Origin: Clostridiales bacterium
Lineage (GTDB): Bacteria; Bacillota; Clostridia; DUOD01
Direction: 5' to 3'
Assembly: GCA_012838995.1 (NCBI GenBank)
Contig: DUOD01000065.1
Location: 1 to 64,000, forward strand
Length of the DNA stretch: 64,000 nucleotides
The notes beneath the pieces are model-generated. The model did not search any database. It was not told the DNA's origin and was given only the letters and a program-made list of their open reading frames with translations. The translations under genes were made by a program, and so were the position numbers. Below are positions 49,292-56,332 of this stretch, in pieces. How positions within the stretch are numbered: position 1 is the stretch's first letter; each line of letters opens with the position of its first letter.

Positions 49292-49770
49292 TGAAACATT
49301 CAAAAAAGTATTGAATTTGAGTGCAGGGTTTTAATTATGAGTATAATAACGCCTTTACGCCAAAGCTCAGTAAAGGTAATATGCTAAGGATTTCTGATAG
49401 AATAAAAAGTGAAAGTTATGTGTATATTGAGGAGCTTGGAAATATAACTTAAGCAGTCGATTGCACTGTGAACAGCTCATACAAAAACTGAACAATTTCA
49501 GATATATAAAAAGCAATTGCCAGATAAAAAGATGTTTCGCAAAGGAATTTTAACCTATTATTTTGAAAGTCTTTTTTGATGATATATCCCATAATTGATA
49601 TACAATAATGTTTTTTAATCTAAGATGTATTACTTTCAACAGCAGGTTGTACAAGACCTGTTTTTTTATTAAAAAACATTTAATAACTTAGGTTTAGCAA
49701 CGAAAATTGTTAAATACGCAATAAAATGAATATATATTAGGTTTTGTCGAAAAATTATTACAAAAAGTTA

Positions 49771-49816
49771 TTGACATATGCCCGAAATAGTATTATATTA
49801 ATTATGAGCATAAGCC
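49771..49816 (+). promoter_or_regulatory. Sigma-A-type promoter with operator-like palindromes (DUF5320-like gene)
   Basis: TTGACA-17 bp-TATATT; GACATATGCC over the -35 (49773-49782) and a degenerate AGCATAAGCC centred exactly 34 bp downstream. Confidence 0.65.
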
Positions 49817-49913
49817 AAAAACTAAATACCAATACATACAACGTTTTGCGTTGTGGTATGTATATGCACAAGAAAAAAGACTTGCCAAAGAATAATTTAA
49901 CGGAGGGATTAAT

Positions 49914-50144
49914 ATGCCATTAAGAGATGGAACGGGTCCTACCGGGCAAGGTCCGGGTACCGGAAGGGGCATGGGATATGGCAGAGGCAGAGGTAGGGGC
50001 AGAATGGGAAGCGACAGCGCCGGAGCAGGGCCCGGAGGATACTGCATCTGCCCTAAGTGCGGTGAAAAAACGCCCCATCAGCAAGGTGTCCCTTGCTACA
50101 CTGTGACTTGTCCCAAGTGTGGTACACCAATGACCAGAGAATAA
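49914..50144 (+). CDS. Small Gly/Arg-rich protein with two CPKCG motifs (DUF5320-like)
   Basis: [29 protein letters not shown]...[41 protein letters not shown]. Confidence 0.8.
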
Positions 50145-50192
50145 AATTATATTCTACCAAGCTAAAAAACTTTATGGGGGGAGGTGACAGTG

Positions 50193-50573
50193 TTGCCTAG
50201 AGGTGATGGAACCGGCCCTATGGGAATGGGACCGATGACCGGTAGGGCAGCCGGCTATTGTGCAGGTTTTGCAGTACCGGGTTATATGAATCCGATGGTA
50301 GGCTTCGGGTTTGGCAGAGGTAGAGGACGTGGCTTTAGAAGAATGTATTACCTAACAGGCCTGCCGGGATGGGCCAGGTTTGGTTATCCTGCGTATGGTC
50401 CTGCCTATGGCCCTATGTATGGCGGTACAAATGTACCAACGGATGAAACGATAGCAGATGAAAAAGAGCTTCTCAGTAAGCAGGTGGAGTTTTTAGAGGA
50501 CCAATTAAAGCAGATGAAGAAGCGCCTAAAGGATCTTGAAGAAGAGATTAAGTCCGATGAAGAAACTGAATAA
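50193..50573 (+). CDS. DUF5320-like Gly-rich protein with C-terminal coiled coil
   Basis: MPRGDGTGPMGMGPMTGRAAGYCAGF; C-term LLSKQVEFLEDQLKQMKKRLKDLEEE; TTG start 8 nt after GGAGG. Confidence 0.8.
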   Translation: MPRGDGTGPMGMGPMTGRAAGYCAGFAVPGYMNPMVGFGFGRGRGRGFRRMYYLTGLPGWARFGYPAYGPAYGPMYGGTNVPTDETIADEKELLSKQVEFLEDQLKQMKKRLKDLEEEIKSDEETE

Positions 50574-50593
50574 GGAAAGCCTTCAATGGCGGT

Positions 50594-50628
50594 TGAGGCA
50601 GGCAAGACTTATCCCTGCCTCATTTTTG
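50594..50628 (+). terminator. Rho-independent terminator
   Basis: TGAGGCAGG...CCTGCCTCA then TTTTTG. Confidence 0.8.
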
Positions 50629-50681
50629 TCTCCTAAAGACACCGTAAATCTAAAACTCAAACTTTTATAGGGGGTATTGTT

Positions 50682-50801
50682 ATGGCTGTAAAAATTGATA
50701 ACAATAAATGTAACGGGTGTGGAGCGTGTGTTGAAGTCTGGCCGGTTGATGCAATCAAGCTTGCTGTATTTACCAGCACCTATAAAATTTTTTTAGCGTA
50801 A
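50682..50801 (+). pseudogene. Truncated [4Fe-4S] ferredoxin-like ORF with fourth Cys replaced by Trp
   Basis: MAVKIDNNKCNGCGACVEVWPVDAIKLAVFTSTYKIFLA*; ferredoxin N-terminal half, then divergence. Confidence 0.7.
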
Positions 50802-51134
50802 AACTTTGTTTATAGAAGGCATGCTTATGAAATGAAAGTTTAAAATGTGCATTAATTGAAATAATATTGAAAAAGGGTAAAATTAAGTACATTATTAAGT
50901 ATTTTGAAGATTCATTAACTACTTAATGGGGAAACAATTAGAAAAAAGGCATTTCTTTATTGGAAACAAAAGTTTATAATGTATTAAGGGTGTGGGGGTT
51001 GGAATTTGCCGAAAAAAGCGTTAAAAAACAGCCTGTTTTGACAGACTGATGGCATGGTGCCATTATTGCTTTCGCAACAGAAGGCAAGGGCTTTAAACAT
51101 TAAAATGCTTCCAAAATATTGGAGTGGTATAGAA

Positions 51135-51965
51135 TTGATAAGGGTGCATATTCTTACCGACAACAGAGTCAGAAAACGGGGCTTGCTTGCAGAACACGGG
51201 CTGTCTTTATGGATAGAAAAAGATGACATGTCCATTCTATTTGATACCGGCCAGTCCTCTGTTTTTTATCATAATGCAAAAAATATGAACATTAGCCTTG
51301 AAAGGGCAGATTATATTATAATAAGTCATGGCCATTATGATCACTGCGGCGGACTACGGTTTTTCCCCCATAAGGATAAAGCTCCGGCCATTTATGTTCA
51401 TACCGATGCATTTCTAAAAAAGTTTGCTGCTACCGATAAGGATGAACCGTCCGGGGATGTTGGGATACCTTTTAATATATCTGATTTGGCTTGGACAAAG
51501 GACCGAATTGTTTATACCAGAAAGCCTTTGGTCATAGATGATGGTATTTTAATATCGGGGGAGATACCCTGTACCAACACTTTTGAAGAAATACCTCAAA
51601 ATTTTTTTATTGAAAAGGACGGTAAAGTAACCCATGACATGATGCTGGATGAACAAATGCTGATTATTGAGGACAATAATGAAATAGCCATATTCCTCGG
51701 ATGCAGCCATCCTGGGATTATTAACAGTATCAAATATGCAAAGAAACTTATCCCGGACAAAAATATCAAACTTCTGGTGGCCGGGATGCATCTTGCAAAC
51801 GTAAGTTCCATACGTCTGCAAATGACCATTCAGCACTTACTGGACATGGATATTCAAAGAATTGTTCCTTTGCACTGCACCGGGTTTAGGGCAATGTGTG
51901 AAATGAAAAAAATTCTTGGTGATCGTTGCCTTATCCTGTGTGGCGGAGATGAGATTGAAGCATAA
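51135..51965 (+). CDS. MBL-fold metallohydrolase (dihydropterin-RFAP-synthase-like subfamily)
   Basis: SILFDTGQSSVFYHNA, ISHGHYDHCGG; C-term HCTGFRAMCEM; TTG start with GGAGTGG RBS. Confidence 0.82.
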   Translation: MIRVHILTDNRVRKRGLLAEHGLSLWIEKDDMSILFDTGQSSVFYHNAKNMNISLERADYIIISHGHYDHCGGLRFFPHKDKAPAIYVHTDAFLKKFAATDKDEPSGDVGIPFNISDLAWTKDRIVYTRKPLVIDDGILISGEIPCTNTFEEIPQNFFIEKDGKVTHDMMLDEQMLIIEDNNEIAIFLGCSHPGIINSIKYAKKLIPDKNIKLLVAGMHLANVSSIRLQMTIQHLLDMDIQRIVPLHCTGFRAMCEMKKILGDRCLILCGGDEIEA

Positions 51966-52118
51966 GACTTTTATAATTTTGGAATATCATTTTTTAATAA
52001 AGGGCTATAAGGAAAACAAGAGTTCTAAAGTCTTTTATTTTAAATTTTAGCTTTAAAAAATCCTGTAAAAATGGATGCCTTGGACCGAAAATGCTTTTTA
52101 TTTTGCGGAGGGGAGAAA

Positions 52119-52658
52119 ATGGACAAGTTGTCAACCAAACGATTGGTATTGTCAGCACTATTTCTAGCATTGGGACTTTTGATGCCCTTTTTAACAGGGC
52201 AAATGCCGAGTATCGGAAGCATGTTGCTACCCATGCATATTCCTGTTTTACTTTGCGGTTTTATTTGCGGATGGCAATATGGCTTGGTAGTTGGCCTTAT
52301 TTCGCCTGTTTTAAGGAGCACGTTATTCGGAATGCCGCCCATGTTTCCCGTAGCCGTAGCCATGACTTTTGAGTTGGCTGCATACGGATTTATGACAGGT
52401 TTTTTATACAAATTACTCCCCAAAAGGAATGTTTTTATATATGTATCATTGATTATATCAATGGTTTTTGGGAGAGCCGTCTGGGGGATGGTTAGCTATT
52501 TCCTGTATGGACTGACCGAAACTGCATTTACATGGGAGATTTTTATGGCGGGTGCATTTTTTAATGCAATTCCGGGCATAGTTATTCAAATTATTGTTAT
52601 CCCATTTATTATCATATTGTTGAAAACAAAAACTTATGAAAAGTATGAGTTGGAATGA
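52119..52658 (+). CDS. ECF transporter S component
   Basis: About six TM helices; LVLSALFLALGLLMPFLTGQMPSIGSMLLPMHIPVLLCGFICGWQYGLVVGLISPVLRS; ATG after GGAGGGGAG. Confidence 0.82.
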   Translation: MDKLSTKRLVLSALFLALGLLMPFLTGQMPSIGSMLLPMHIPVLLCGFICGWQYGLVVGLISPVLRSTLFGMPPMFPVAVAMTFELAAYGFMTGFLYKLLPKRNVFIYVSLIISMVFGRAVWGMVSYFLYGLTETAFTWEIFMAGAFFNAIPGIVIQIIVIPFIIILLKTKTYEKYELE

Positions 52659-53728
52659 ATCTAAAAGCTTTGCTGCTCAAACATTACCGTTTATATCCTA
52701 AGATGCAAATTCAGGATATGATAAAGCTTATATATCAAAACGAATTTGCCGGTGGGCATATATATGAAAATGAAGGGGAAAGTTTGCGCAAATTGCAGGA
52801 TGAAATCTGCTATTTGGAACAACTTCCTCCCGAGTACAAGACCTCTGAAAAAGCTTTTGAGGACATCGGTAACAATCTTTGCAGATTTCATTTAACGGCT
52901 TACAGGCATTATAATATAAGCCTTGAAACTATAAACAGGTTCTTTTTAAATACATCCAAGTCGGTACGTGGAAGCATTGAAGGCTTTGAAGAAAAACTGG
53001 ATGTCTTTAGGCAGTGCTGTAAGGAAGGATTGATTCCCTACCCCTTGGAAGAGTTGGAAGCTTATTTGTCTTGCTACAAAAAGAAAGGCTATCCGCCGGT
53101 TGGCCACAGTGAAATTTACCGTACGGCCTATTTTCCTGCCTATCGTGTTGTAAAGTCGGAATATTGCCGTTTTTTCAAGGTATTTTGCAGGATCGATTCG
53201 TTAATGAAATCCAAGGACTGTGTCAATGTTGCCATTGACGGAAACAGCGGCGCCGGCAAAAGTACACTGGCAATGCTGATAGGCGATGTATATGATTGCA
53301 ATATATTCCACATGGATGATTTCTTCCTGACACCTGAGCTGAGGACAAAGGAGCGTTTAAGGGAAACGGGTGGAAATGTGGATTATGTTCGGTTTAAACA
53401 TGAAATAATTGACGGGATAAACAGCGGCCGCCAATTCCGGTATCGTAAATACGACTGCAGGGAAGAAGCCTTTGGAGAGCCCATACCGGTTACCCCTAAA
53501 AAACTTAATATTATAGAGGGTGCTTATAGTATGCATCCTACCTTAATAGACAATTATGATTTAAAGATATTTATGTATATTAATGAAAGAGAACAAAGGT
53601 CTCGGATTTTAAAAAGAAACGGAGCTTTTATGTTGAAAAAGTTTCTCTCAGAATGGATACCGCTGGAAAACAAGTATTTTAGAGAGCTAAATATTGAGGG
53701 GCAATGTGATTTGGTCTTTGGAAAGTAG
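52655..53728 (+). CDS. Uridine-kinase/PRK-like P-loop kinase with extra about 180-aa N-terminal domain
   Basis: Walker A DGNSGAGKST, HMDDFF; ATGA start/stop overlap with ECF S component. Confidence 0.8.
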   Translation: MNLKALLLKHYRLYPKMQIQDMIKLIYQNEFAGGHIYENEGESLRKLQDEICYLEQLPPEYKTSEKAFEDIGNNLCRFHLTAYRHYNISLETINRFFLNTSKSVRGSIEGFEEKLDVFRQCCKEGLIPYPLEELEAYLSCYKKKGYPPVGHSEIYRTAYFPAYRVVKSEYCRFFKVFCRIDSLMKSKDCVNVAIDGNSGAGKSTLAMLIGDVYDCNIFHMDDFFLTPELRTKERLRETGGNVDYVRFKHEIIDGINSGRQFRYRKYDCREEAFGEPIPVTPKKLNIIEGAYSMHPTLIDNYDLKIFMYINEREQRSRILKRNGAFMLKKFLSEWIPLENKYFRELNIEGQCDLVFGK

Positions 53729-53802
53729 TCCCATGGGCATTATTATTTGCCATTAAAAGGGGCTGCTTTTTAATGGTGTTTTTTATAAAAGCAAAATACT
53801 TA

Positions 53803-53848
53803 TTGACATATGTCGAAGAGATAATATAAGATGTAAATGACATATGTC
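53803..53848 (+). promoter_or_regulatory. Promoter with paired perfect palindromes GACATATGTC upstream of DUF134 gene
   Basis: TTGACA-16 bp-TATAAG; GACATATGTC at 53805-53814 and 53839-53848 (centres 34 bp apart). Confidence 0.7.
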
Positions 53849-54060
53849 GCAAACCATAAAAAGCTGAGGGTGTGTCTATAAAGTACGGGATCGGCCTTAT
53901 TTATAACTGAAAAAGTCCAAATTTTATACCGGGACAAATGAAGCTTTGTATAACACCAATGCCGGAGCGGGGACAGGACATATAATTTTTGGCGATGCTT
54001 TGGCAGCAGATGCAGCCGGAGGACGGTCCGGAGTTCTTGATTAGAAATGGGGTGAAAATT

Positions 54061-54420
54061 TTGGCAAGACCGATGAAATGGAGAAGGGTATGCTGCTTGC
54101 CTGAAAAAAACAGGTTTGGGCCCCTGGATGCAGAGGTGGATAAAAAGAACCATATAAGGATGACGATTGACGAGTATGAGACCATAAGGCTTATCGACTT
54201 AGAGGGGCTTACACAAGAAGAATGTGCAAAACAAATGAACGTTGCCCGAACAACTGCTCAAGGTATTTATATCCAAGCGAGAAAGAAGCTGGCCGAATTT
54301 CTGGTGAACGGTAATATATTATTAATTGAAGGTGGAAAATACCGTCTTTGCAACGGATTGGGAGATGGATGCGGCCGGGGCTGTCATAGGCATAGGCATG
54401 GCAGACGCTTTAAGGAATAA
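54061..54420 (+). CDS. DUF134 family HTH DNA-binding protein
   Basis: [20 protein letters not shown]...[49 protein letters not shown] start. Confidence 0.9.
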
Positions 54421-54774: not shown

Positions 54775-55623
54775 ATGAAGGAAAATTGCAATCAAAACTG
54801 TAGCAGCTGCGGGGAAGACTGCGCTGAAAGAAAGGAACAAAAGACGGACTTTTCCGAAAAACCCCATGAAATGAGCAGCATCAAAAAGGTTATTGGCATT
54901 GTCAGCGGAAAAGGGGGAGTTGGCAAGTCGCTGGTAACTTCAATGCTTGCAGTTACCATGAACAGAAGGGGCTATCATACCGCCATTCTTGATGCGGACG
55001 TAACCGGACCTTCTATTCCAAAGGCATTCGGAATCAAAGAAAAGGCTGCCGGTAATGAATTTGGCTTGTTTCCGGTAAGAAGCAAGACAGGTATTGATAT
55101 CATGTCCATTAATTTACTTTTGGAAAATGATACCGACCCGGTTGTATGGAGGGGTCCGTTAATTGCCGGTATGGTCAAGCAATTCTGGACGGATGTTATC
55201 TGGAATGATGTGGATTTCATGTTTATCGATATGCCCCCCGGAACGGGCGATGTTCCGCTTACCGTGTTCCAGTCCATGGCTGTGGACGGAATAATCGTTG
55301 TAACCTCGCCCCAGGAGCTGGTATCAATGATCGTATCGAAAGCAGTTAAGATGGCTGAGATGATGGATGTTCCTATTATTGGTTTGGTAGAAAATATGTC
55401 CTATTTTAGATGTCCTGATAACGGTAAAGACTACAAGATTTTTGGAGACAGTCACATAGAAGAAATAGCTGAAAAGCATAACCTAAAAGTCCTTGCCAAA
55501 CTACCCATTGACCCAAAAATTTCAGCTGCCTGCGATAAGGGTATGATAGAACTCTTCGACGGCGATTGGCTTGAGCCCGTGGCGAAAATATTGGAAGAAG
55601 GACTGGAGGAAGGTAAAAAGTGA
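54775..55623 (+). CDS. Mrp/NBP35 family P-loop ATPase (Fe-S carrier-like)
   Basis: N-term CNQNCSSCGEDC; GIVSGKGGVGKSLVTSMLA; DMPPGTGDVPLTVFQS. Confidence 0.93.
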   Translation: MKENCNQNCSSCGEDCAERKEQKTDFSEKPHEMSSIKKVIGIVSGKGGVGKSLVTSMLAVTMNRRGYHTAILDADVTGPSIPKAFGIKEKAAGNEFGLFPVRSKTGIDIMSINLLLENDTDPVVWRGPLIAGMVKQFWTDVIWNDVDFMFIDMPPGTGDVPLTVFQSMAVDGIIVVTSPQELVSMIVSKAVKMAEMMDVPIIGLVENMSYFRCPDNGKDYKIFGDSHIEEIAEKHNLKVLAKLPIDPKISAACDKGMIELFDGDWLEPVAKILEEGLEEGKK

Positions 55624-56069
55624 GTACCCATTCAGAGTTGGCAAAGGAACTATTTTTAAAAGGTTATAATTGCTCTCAATCGGTTTTTGCTGCCTTTTGC
55701 GATGAAACAGGGCTGGATACCGATACGGCCCTAAAAGTAGCATCTTCCTTTGGAGGCGGTATGGGCGGGTTGCAGGGAGTATGCGGAGCAGTCAGCGGGA
55801 TGTTTATGGTAGTCGGCATGAAATATGGTTATACACATCCGCCTGATAAAACAGCAAAAAAAGAATTTTACGGGCTTATTAAACATTTGGCAAAGCAATT
55901 TGAAAAAGAAGAGGGTTCAATCATATGTAGAGAGCTTCTGGATCTTTTGATAAAAAACAACTACCCAGGGTCCGGGGGCAAAAGGCATTTTTGCGCAGGC
56001 CTTGTTGAGCAGGCTGCAAGGCTACTTGATGAATATATTTTAGAAAAAAATAAACGATCGGACAGTTGA
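55620..56069 (+). CDS. C_GCAxxG_C_C family protein
   Basis: GYNCSQSVFAAF, GGMGGLQGVCGAVSGMFMV, C-term HFCAGLVEQAARLL; start overlaps the previous stop. Confidence 0.9.
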   Translation: MSTHSELAKELFLKGYNCSQSVFAAFCDETGLDTDTALKVASSFGGGMGGLQGVCGAVSGMFMVVGMKYGYTHPPDKTAKKEFYGLIKHLAKQFEKEEGSIICRELLDLLIKNNYPGSGGKRHFCAGLVEQAARLLDEYILEKNKRSDS

Positions 56070-56176: not shown

Positions 56177-56332
56177 ATGAAGGTTGGATTATTCGGATAT
56201 CTTCAAACTGAGGACATATGTCCCAAACACAAGATTTTAAATCATAAAGGAAAAAAGTCGGTATTCATAGGAATAGAAGGAGATATCGAGATTAATGGAA
56301 ATAATGGATACGGATTTATGCTAAAATTCTGA
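56177..56332 (+). pseudogene. Truncated CGGC-domain-like protein
   Basis: MKVGLFGYLQTEDICPKHKILNHKGKKSVFIGIEGDIEI resembles the CGGC-domain N-terminus, then diverges and stops before a CGGC motif. Confidence 0.5.

Follow-up and report, generated by a model that had tools for sequence, protein, structure and literature searches.

A palindromic operator is paired at two promoters of the window

The 64,000-nucleotide stretch analysed here (hereafter ‘the window’), from contig DUOD01000065.1 of a Clostridiales bacterium, encodes a protein of the DUF134 (UPF0251) family that is very probably an autoregulating repressor, acting through paired operators to control its own gene together with ORP-like genes for iron–sulfur (Fe-S) and molybdenum (Mo) cofactor functions. 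Two promoters in the window, one of them ahead of the DUF134 gene, each carry two copies of a palindromic operator. The operators were ranked with a 22 base pair (bp) weight matrix (23.5 bits) built from 154 right-hand operators of other genomes only, and the four sites take ranks 1, 2, 4 and 6 among the 64,000 window positions. The elements in question are as follows:

49767–49788, + strand: left operator of promoter 1 (GTTATTGACATATGCCCGAAAT); matrix rank 1 of 64,000 positions, 26.5 bits
49794–49799, + strand: −10 element of promoter 1, TATATT; 17-bp spacer, read directly
49801–49822, + strand: right operator of promoter 1 (ATTATGAGCATAAGCCAAAAAC); rank 4, 15.8 bits, per-position p = 6e-5
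53799–53820, + strand: left operator of promoter 2 (CTTATTGACATATGTCGAAGAG); rank 6, 13.9 bits
53825–53830, + strand: −10 element of promoter 2, TATAAG; 16-bp spacer
53833–53854, + strand: right operator of promoter 2 (GTAAATGACATATGTCGCAAAC); rank 2, 25.1 bits
54061–54420, + strand: DUF134/UPF0251 class I regulator, 119 amino acids; Pfam 66.7 bits; recognition helix ARTTAQ; cysteines 11, 97, 104 and 108

Direct reading of promoter 1 places TTGACATATGCC, with an inner half-site of the GGG type, at positions 49771–49782 of the left operator, where it contains the −35 hexamer TTGACA (49771–49776). The right operator reads AGCATAAGCC at 49807–49816, with a single core mismatch and the outer TTA/AA retained. 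The left operator of promoter 2 likewise holds its −35 hexamer (TTGACA, 53803–53808) within TTGACATATGTC (53803–53814), and the right operator contains a perfect GACATATGTC at 53839–53848. The operator centres are 34 bp apart at both promoters, with the −10 element between the paired sites in each. An earlier reading of the window (the original prediction) had described paired palindromes at this spacing, bracketing the −10, at both 53803 and 49771; that description holds letter for letter, and the degenerate partner it proposed at the 49771 promoter is validated by its rank and p value under a matrix trained on other genomes. Its identification of the gene at 54061 (likely start codon TTG) as DUF134 is confirmed by a score far above the Pfam cut-off of 27 bits. 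The exact pair for which it suggested a scan occurs once in the organism's own 1.92-Mb genome, and a reversed control pattern occurs nowhere in it.

A third copy of GACATATGTC, at 56213, was considered as an operator and rejected: it lies within the codons for TEDICP, with no promoter seen nearby, and is probably a coding coincidence. The short open reading frame (ORF) that encloses it (56177–56332) resembles a fragment of a cysteine-rich protein.

The operator pair accompanies DUF134 across genomes

Because the window genome is the sole representative of its order in our sample, we made the comparison at the level of the class, using 391 genomes and the scan pattern GACATATGYC-N6-36-CATATG. 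The pair was present in 108 of these genomes and DUF134, which is also found in archaea, in 149 of those compared (150 by the search tally; ∼40%). Both occurred in 86 genomes, DUF134 only in 63, the pair only in 22 and neither in 220 (Fisher p = 1.5e-25, odds ratio 13.7), and a reversed-pattern control over the same 391 genomes displayed no association with DUF134 (p = 0.7). In the loci that were fetched, 58 of 77 promoter-type pairs were followed on their own strand by a DUF134 gene at most 1.5 kb away (median distance 358 bp), and many of the remaining pairs sit before other genes of a DUF134-type operon.

A motif-independent set of 80 GTDB loci was selected by DUF134 protein similarity, some of them from the same organisms as the first set. 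Among the 77 loci with at least 300 bp of upstream sequence, 53 contained the pair within 1 kb upstream of DUF134. It occurred in only 1 of the 72 downstream windows and was absent from all 1,540 shuffles. The labels of the loci with the pair include Synergistaceae, Anaerolineaceae, Bacillus and Erysipelotrichaceae. The original prediction was to fall if the pair were not enriched at DUF134 genes elsewhere, and the enrichment proved strong in both sets. Separately, several IMG/VR contigs filed as viral (L275–L280) encode DUF134 and have operator-like palindromes 34–49 bp apart just upstream.

The operator consists of two inverted −35 hexamers

Across 173 distinct promoters the operator consensus is RTTATTGACATATGTCAATAAY, a 22-bp palindrome with the core TTGACA-TA-TGTCAA (two inverted −35 hexamers) and the flanks TTA/TAA. 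The 10-mer originally described as the operator is indeed palindromic, but is the inner part of this longer site. The left operator provides the −35 element, and a perfect TATAAT (80 of 173) or a five-of-six match to it (67 of 173) lies between the operators as the −10; the right operator begins roughly 6–14 bp beyond that −10. Since the right copy sits off the −35 and still follows the same 22-bp pattern, its conservation is not caused by the promoter. This bears directly on the idea that the palindromes arise by chance, from TTGACA over a −35 element within AT-rich sequence. A −35 element alone does account for the left half of the pattern, but not for right operators with the full pattern intact, and the controls and shuffles yield almost none; we regard that explanation as already refuted.

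The centre-to-centre spacing is mostly 38–39 bp, then 36 and 34 bp, within a range of 18–44 bp in which extremes of 18 and 28 bp are present. The preferred spacing is mostly what follows from seating the first operator on the −35 and the second shortly beyond the −10. Obligatory looping is rejected on the basis of this range. Operator pairs also recur inside single loci: L167 has three and L263 two, spread over a few kb, with one ahead of each gene block.

Half-site sequence follows the DUF134 recognition helix

When palindromes were collected with no preselection for CATATG, the top palindrome ahead of class I DUF134 genes was ACATATGT/GACATATGTC (the TGACATATGTCA form), and an unselected search ahead of class III genes returned GCATATGC in 7 of 7 cases (the TGTGCATATGCACA form). 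The recognition helix [AG]RxTxQ pairs with TGA/TGG half-sites and SRGTFQ with GTG half-sites (9 of 9 genes), and class II-only genomes display GGG/GAG half-sites in 19 of 21 cases (GGG 15, GAG 4, TGA 2). Class III proteins (SRGTFQ) with a GTGCATATGCAC-type operator, at loci L027, L029, L031, L089 and L091–L095, constitute a second specificity group. In three taxonomic families (f26, f53 and f21), class I organisms have TGA sites and class III organisms GTG sites, such that the operators follow the class of DUF134 and not the organism. Because the half-sites vary with the recognition helix even inside single families, it is very likely that DUF134 itself binds the operator, a conclusion to which the position of the sites, ahead of DUF134 genes in many families, and the unselected palindromes also point. 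The predicted targets are TTGACATATGTCAA / GTTATTGACATATGTCAATAAC for class I and GTGCATATGCAC for class III.

The arrangement TTGAC....GTCAA resembles sites of the FNR family, and a CRP/FNR-family regulator (HcpR/FNR-like, TTGAC-N4-GTCAA) might therefore bind the palindromes, with DUF134 merely a target gene. The CRP consensus also includes TGAcatatgTCa (PMC4655474). However, CRP/FNR sites have an unconserved centre, and the centre here is fixed: ATAT occupies it in 90 of 94 instances of TGAC(....)GTCA upstream of DUF134 and follows 155 of ∼164 instances of TTATTGAC. The half-site moreover shifts with DUF134 class inside one family, and there is no CRP/FNR gene in the conserved neighbourhood clusters. 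We therefore reject CRP/FNR as the binder and consider it highly improbable. Regulators of the DtxR/MntR type, which are encoded directly behind the DUF134 operator pair at L141:6927–7328 and L168:6893–7300, suggest a possible regulatory cascade at those loci; as a general binder they were rejected, being present in few operons.

DUF134 is predicted to resemble sigma region 4 and probably represses

The window protein carries the family-invariant residues P14, P21, E40, R43, D46, M59, R63, T65 and GG91–92 in two alignments; the alignment used for folding leaves out one locus with a stop. Its score against the Sigma70_r4 profile (E = 2e-4, 21.4 bits) falls under the 25.7-bit cut-off, with relatives in a similar range. 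In the predicted structure (pLDDT, the per-residue confidence score, of 80), residues 31–84 match sigma region 4 and −35 binding domains as the top Foldseek results (probability ∼1, root-mean-square deviation 0.6–1.0 over ∼47 residues), with VIA Z of 5–6.6 against domains of that type. The helix-turn-helix (HTH) domain thus appears sigma-region-4-like, and while such a fold by itself is no proof of function, it agrees with a half-site in the form of a −35 hexamer. The conservation of cysteines 11, 97, 104 and 108 in class I proteins suggests a metal or Fe-S site. At two loci (L178:7758–8483 and L179:6921–7646) DUF134 is fused to a Nitro_FeMo-Co domain (PF02579), each fusion with its own operator pair upstream, which hints that cofactor binding could be the signal.

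We propose that the sigma-region-4-like HTH of DUF134 would read the TTGACA-like half-site, with a dimer of the protein occupying each 22-bp palindrome. The two operators would bracket a near-consensus sigma-70 promoter, one over the −35 and one past the −10, so that bound DUF134 would shield the −35 and the start site from sigma. Its targets would comprise DUF134 itself, DUF5320 proteins, Nitro_FeMo-Co proteins, MinD-like ATPases with two 4Fe-4S sites, an MBL-fold hydrolase and an Mrp carrier. Given the conserved cysteines and the natural fusions, the signal is probably the metal or Fe-S cluster state of the four cysteines, or else whether Nitro_FeMo-Co proteins are loaded; release of DUF134 would then turn on the cofactor carriers when required.

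Repression is the likely direction of regulation, since one operator overlies the −35 and the second follows the −10; we infer that direction, as we do dimerisation, the signal and any cooperation. Of the original suggestion of a repressor that is possibly cooperative or looped, the first part stands as likely; cooperative or looped binding is at most possible, the spacings ranging from 18 to 44 bp. Alternatively, DUF134 could be an activator, or could stand in as a sigma-like factor, and bring in polymerase via the −35-like operator; this would also fit a sigma-region-4-like fold and a −35 within the left operator. The −35 and −10 are already near consensus, however, such that an activator is not needed, the second operator lies beyond the start site in a position that suits repression, and DUF134 is without sigma region 2; we consider this alternative unlikely. 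For the family at large, it seems somewhat probable that DUF134 proteins act as dimers on head-to-head −35 hexamers in competition with sigma, sense Fe-S or Mo/Fe clusters through the four cysteines or a fused Nitro_FeMo-Co domain, control anaerobic cofactor-carrier operons, and have shifted subfamily specificity (TGA, GTG, GGG/GAG) via the recognition helix.

Several points weigh against DUF134 as an autoregulating repressor. The strict pair is missing from 63 of the 149 DUF134 genomes, many of which have class II or III proteins or single or degenerate sites, and none of 17 class II genes with the helix SRQTFQ has a clear site of its own within 500 bp, so that not every DUF134 autoregulates. 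Several of the tables preselect CATATG, the unselected results being the palindrome search, the window matrix ranking and the centre-letter count. Kinship among the genomes means that the counts are not independent. The operator spacing is unfixed, the Foldseek E-values are weak (∼0.1), and the evidence is computational throughout.

Genes behind the operators

Additional features of the window are as follows:

49914–50144, + strand: DUF5320-like glycine-rich protein with C-terminal cysteine pairs (PF17253, 27.7 bits against a cut-off of 27)
50184–50573, + strand: second, clear DUF5320 protein (98.5 bits)
51054–51965, + strand: MBL-fold hydrolase; homologs within the DUF134 operon of relatives
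52119–52658, + strand: ECF transporter S component (ORF opens at 52071); shares an operon with DUF134 in L113/L117
52655–53728, + strand: P-loop kinase-like protein with a C-terminal uridine-kinase-like domain; linked in L113/L117
54775–55623, + strand: Mrp/NBP35 (MrpORP-like) Fe-S carrier ATPase, 3′ of DUF134
55620–56069, + strand: C-GCAxxG-C-C family redox protein, overlapping the end of the Mrp gene

Promoter 1 precedes the two DUF5320 genes (the first of which, as originally proposed, is DUF5320-like), followed by the MBL, ECF and kinase genes, and promoter 2 precedes DUF134, Mrp and the C-GCAxxG-C-C protein. Two stretches between genes may be remnants. Positions 50683–50799, 3′ of DUF5320, hold a shortened ferredoxin gene relic (MAVKIDNNKCNGCGACVEVWPVDAIKL...) that contains stop codons, and the gap of ∼150 bp from operator to DUF134 (53900–54045), a slot that DUF5320 occupies in relatives, may be coding sequence that has decayed.

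In relatives, DUF5320 is the usual first gene 3′ of the operator, and the order behind it is DUF5320, DUF134, Nitro_FeMo-Co, two 4Fe-4S MinD-like ATPases, MBL, Mrp and Nitro_FeMo-Co. In the window genome this set is divided among four promoters: 49771, 53803, and one each on contigs C16 and C34. At C16:61230, a right operator (27.8 bits) and a left partner (12.9 bits), with centres 40 bp apart, precede Nitro_FeMo-Co–ATPase–ATPase genes. The site at C34:6461 (18.8 bits) lies ahead of a BMC-domain gene with homologs in the L167/L169 operon. Both gene types occur in the DUF134 operon of relatives. The components that define an ORP-like set (Nitro_FeMo-Co protein, paired 4Fe-4S MinD-like ATPases and Mrp carrier) are thus present, split over the window, C16 and C34. 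The originally proposed autoregulated DUF134 regulon of cysteine-rich and Fe-S genes is well supported by the sequence, including a half-site that tracks the recognition helix.

The additional proposal that one DUF134 serves both window promoters stands for 53803; at 49771 the half-sites are GGG/GAG, resembling those of genomes with class II DUF134. The window genome does encode a second, class II DUF134 (G000:C63:14664–14948; L041, L058), which has a C-terminal zinc-ribbon-like stretch and may share or own promoter 49771. As a tentative refinement of the regulatory scheme, and not a replacement for it, 49771 and C34 (GGG/GAG, the class II-only type) could answer to this paralog and 53803 (TGA/CGA) to the class I protein at 54061. 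We hold that division to be possible but short of probable: GGG also appears occasionally in class I genomes (9 of ∼150 halves, for example beside the class I gene of G110), and the paralog has no operator of its own upstream.

Comparison with known systems

The family has no assigned function, and the open-access papers that were searched yielded no description of its function, operator, regulon or autoregulation. The window regulator is a clear member of UPF0251/DUF134 (PF02001, COG1342) by Pfam, to which class I adds the predicted sigma-region-4-like HTH and conserved cysteines. With sigma-70 region 4 and other −35 domains (SigmaE region 4–DNA, 2h27; SigW domain 4–DNA, 6jhe) it shares that predicted fold and a TTGACA-like half-site. 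Unlike sigma-70 proteins, it lacks sigma region 2, would bind two inverted −35 hexamers as a dimer, and probably represses. It may exemplify a regulator that borrows sigma's −35 reading head to bind paired −35 elements; sigma and repressor would therefore compete for the same letters.

The regulated genes are similar in kind to those of the Desulfovibrio ORP operons and MrpORP (PMC6345978): two [4Fe-4S] ATPases, Nitro_FeMo-Co (Di-Nase) domains and an Mrp/NBP35 carrier. For the Desulfovibrio operons, control by sigma-54 is reported (PMC6345978), whereas those described here have sigma-70-type −35/−10 promoters bracketed by DUF134 operators, which suggests a way in which ORP-type Fe-S/Mo cofactor carriers may be controlled in anaerobes beyond Desulfovibrio.

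The closest regulatory parallel is with double-operator, autoregulated one-component metal or redox repressors, which likewise are small HTH proteins acting at their own promoter from operators over the −35 and start site. DUF134 differs from these in HTH family and operator, and its sensor is only proposed. The autoregulated double-operator repressor is therefore a known type; the uncharacterised family, its sigma-4-like reader and the inverted −35 operator would be new, and a domain of unknown function would acquire a role, a target site in DNA, a set of regulated genes and a specificity code that can be tested.

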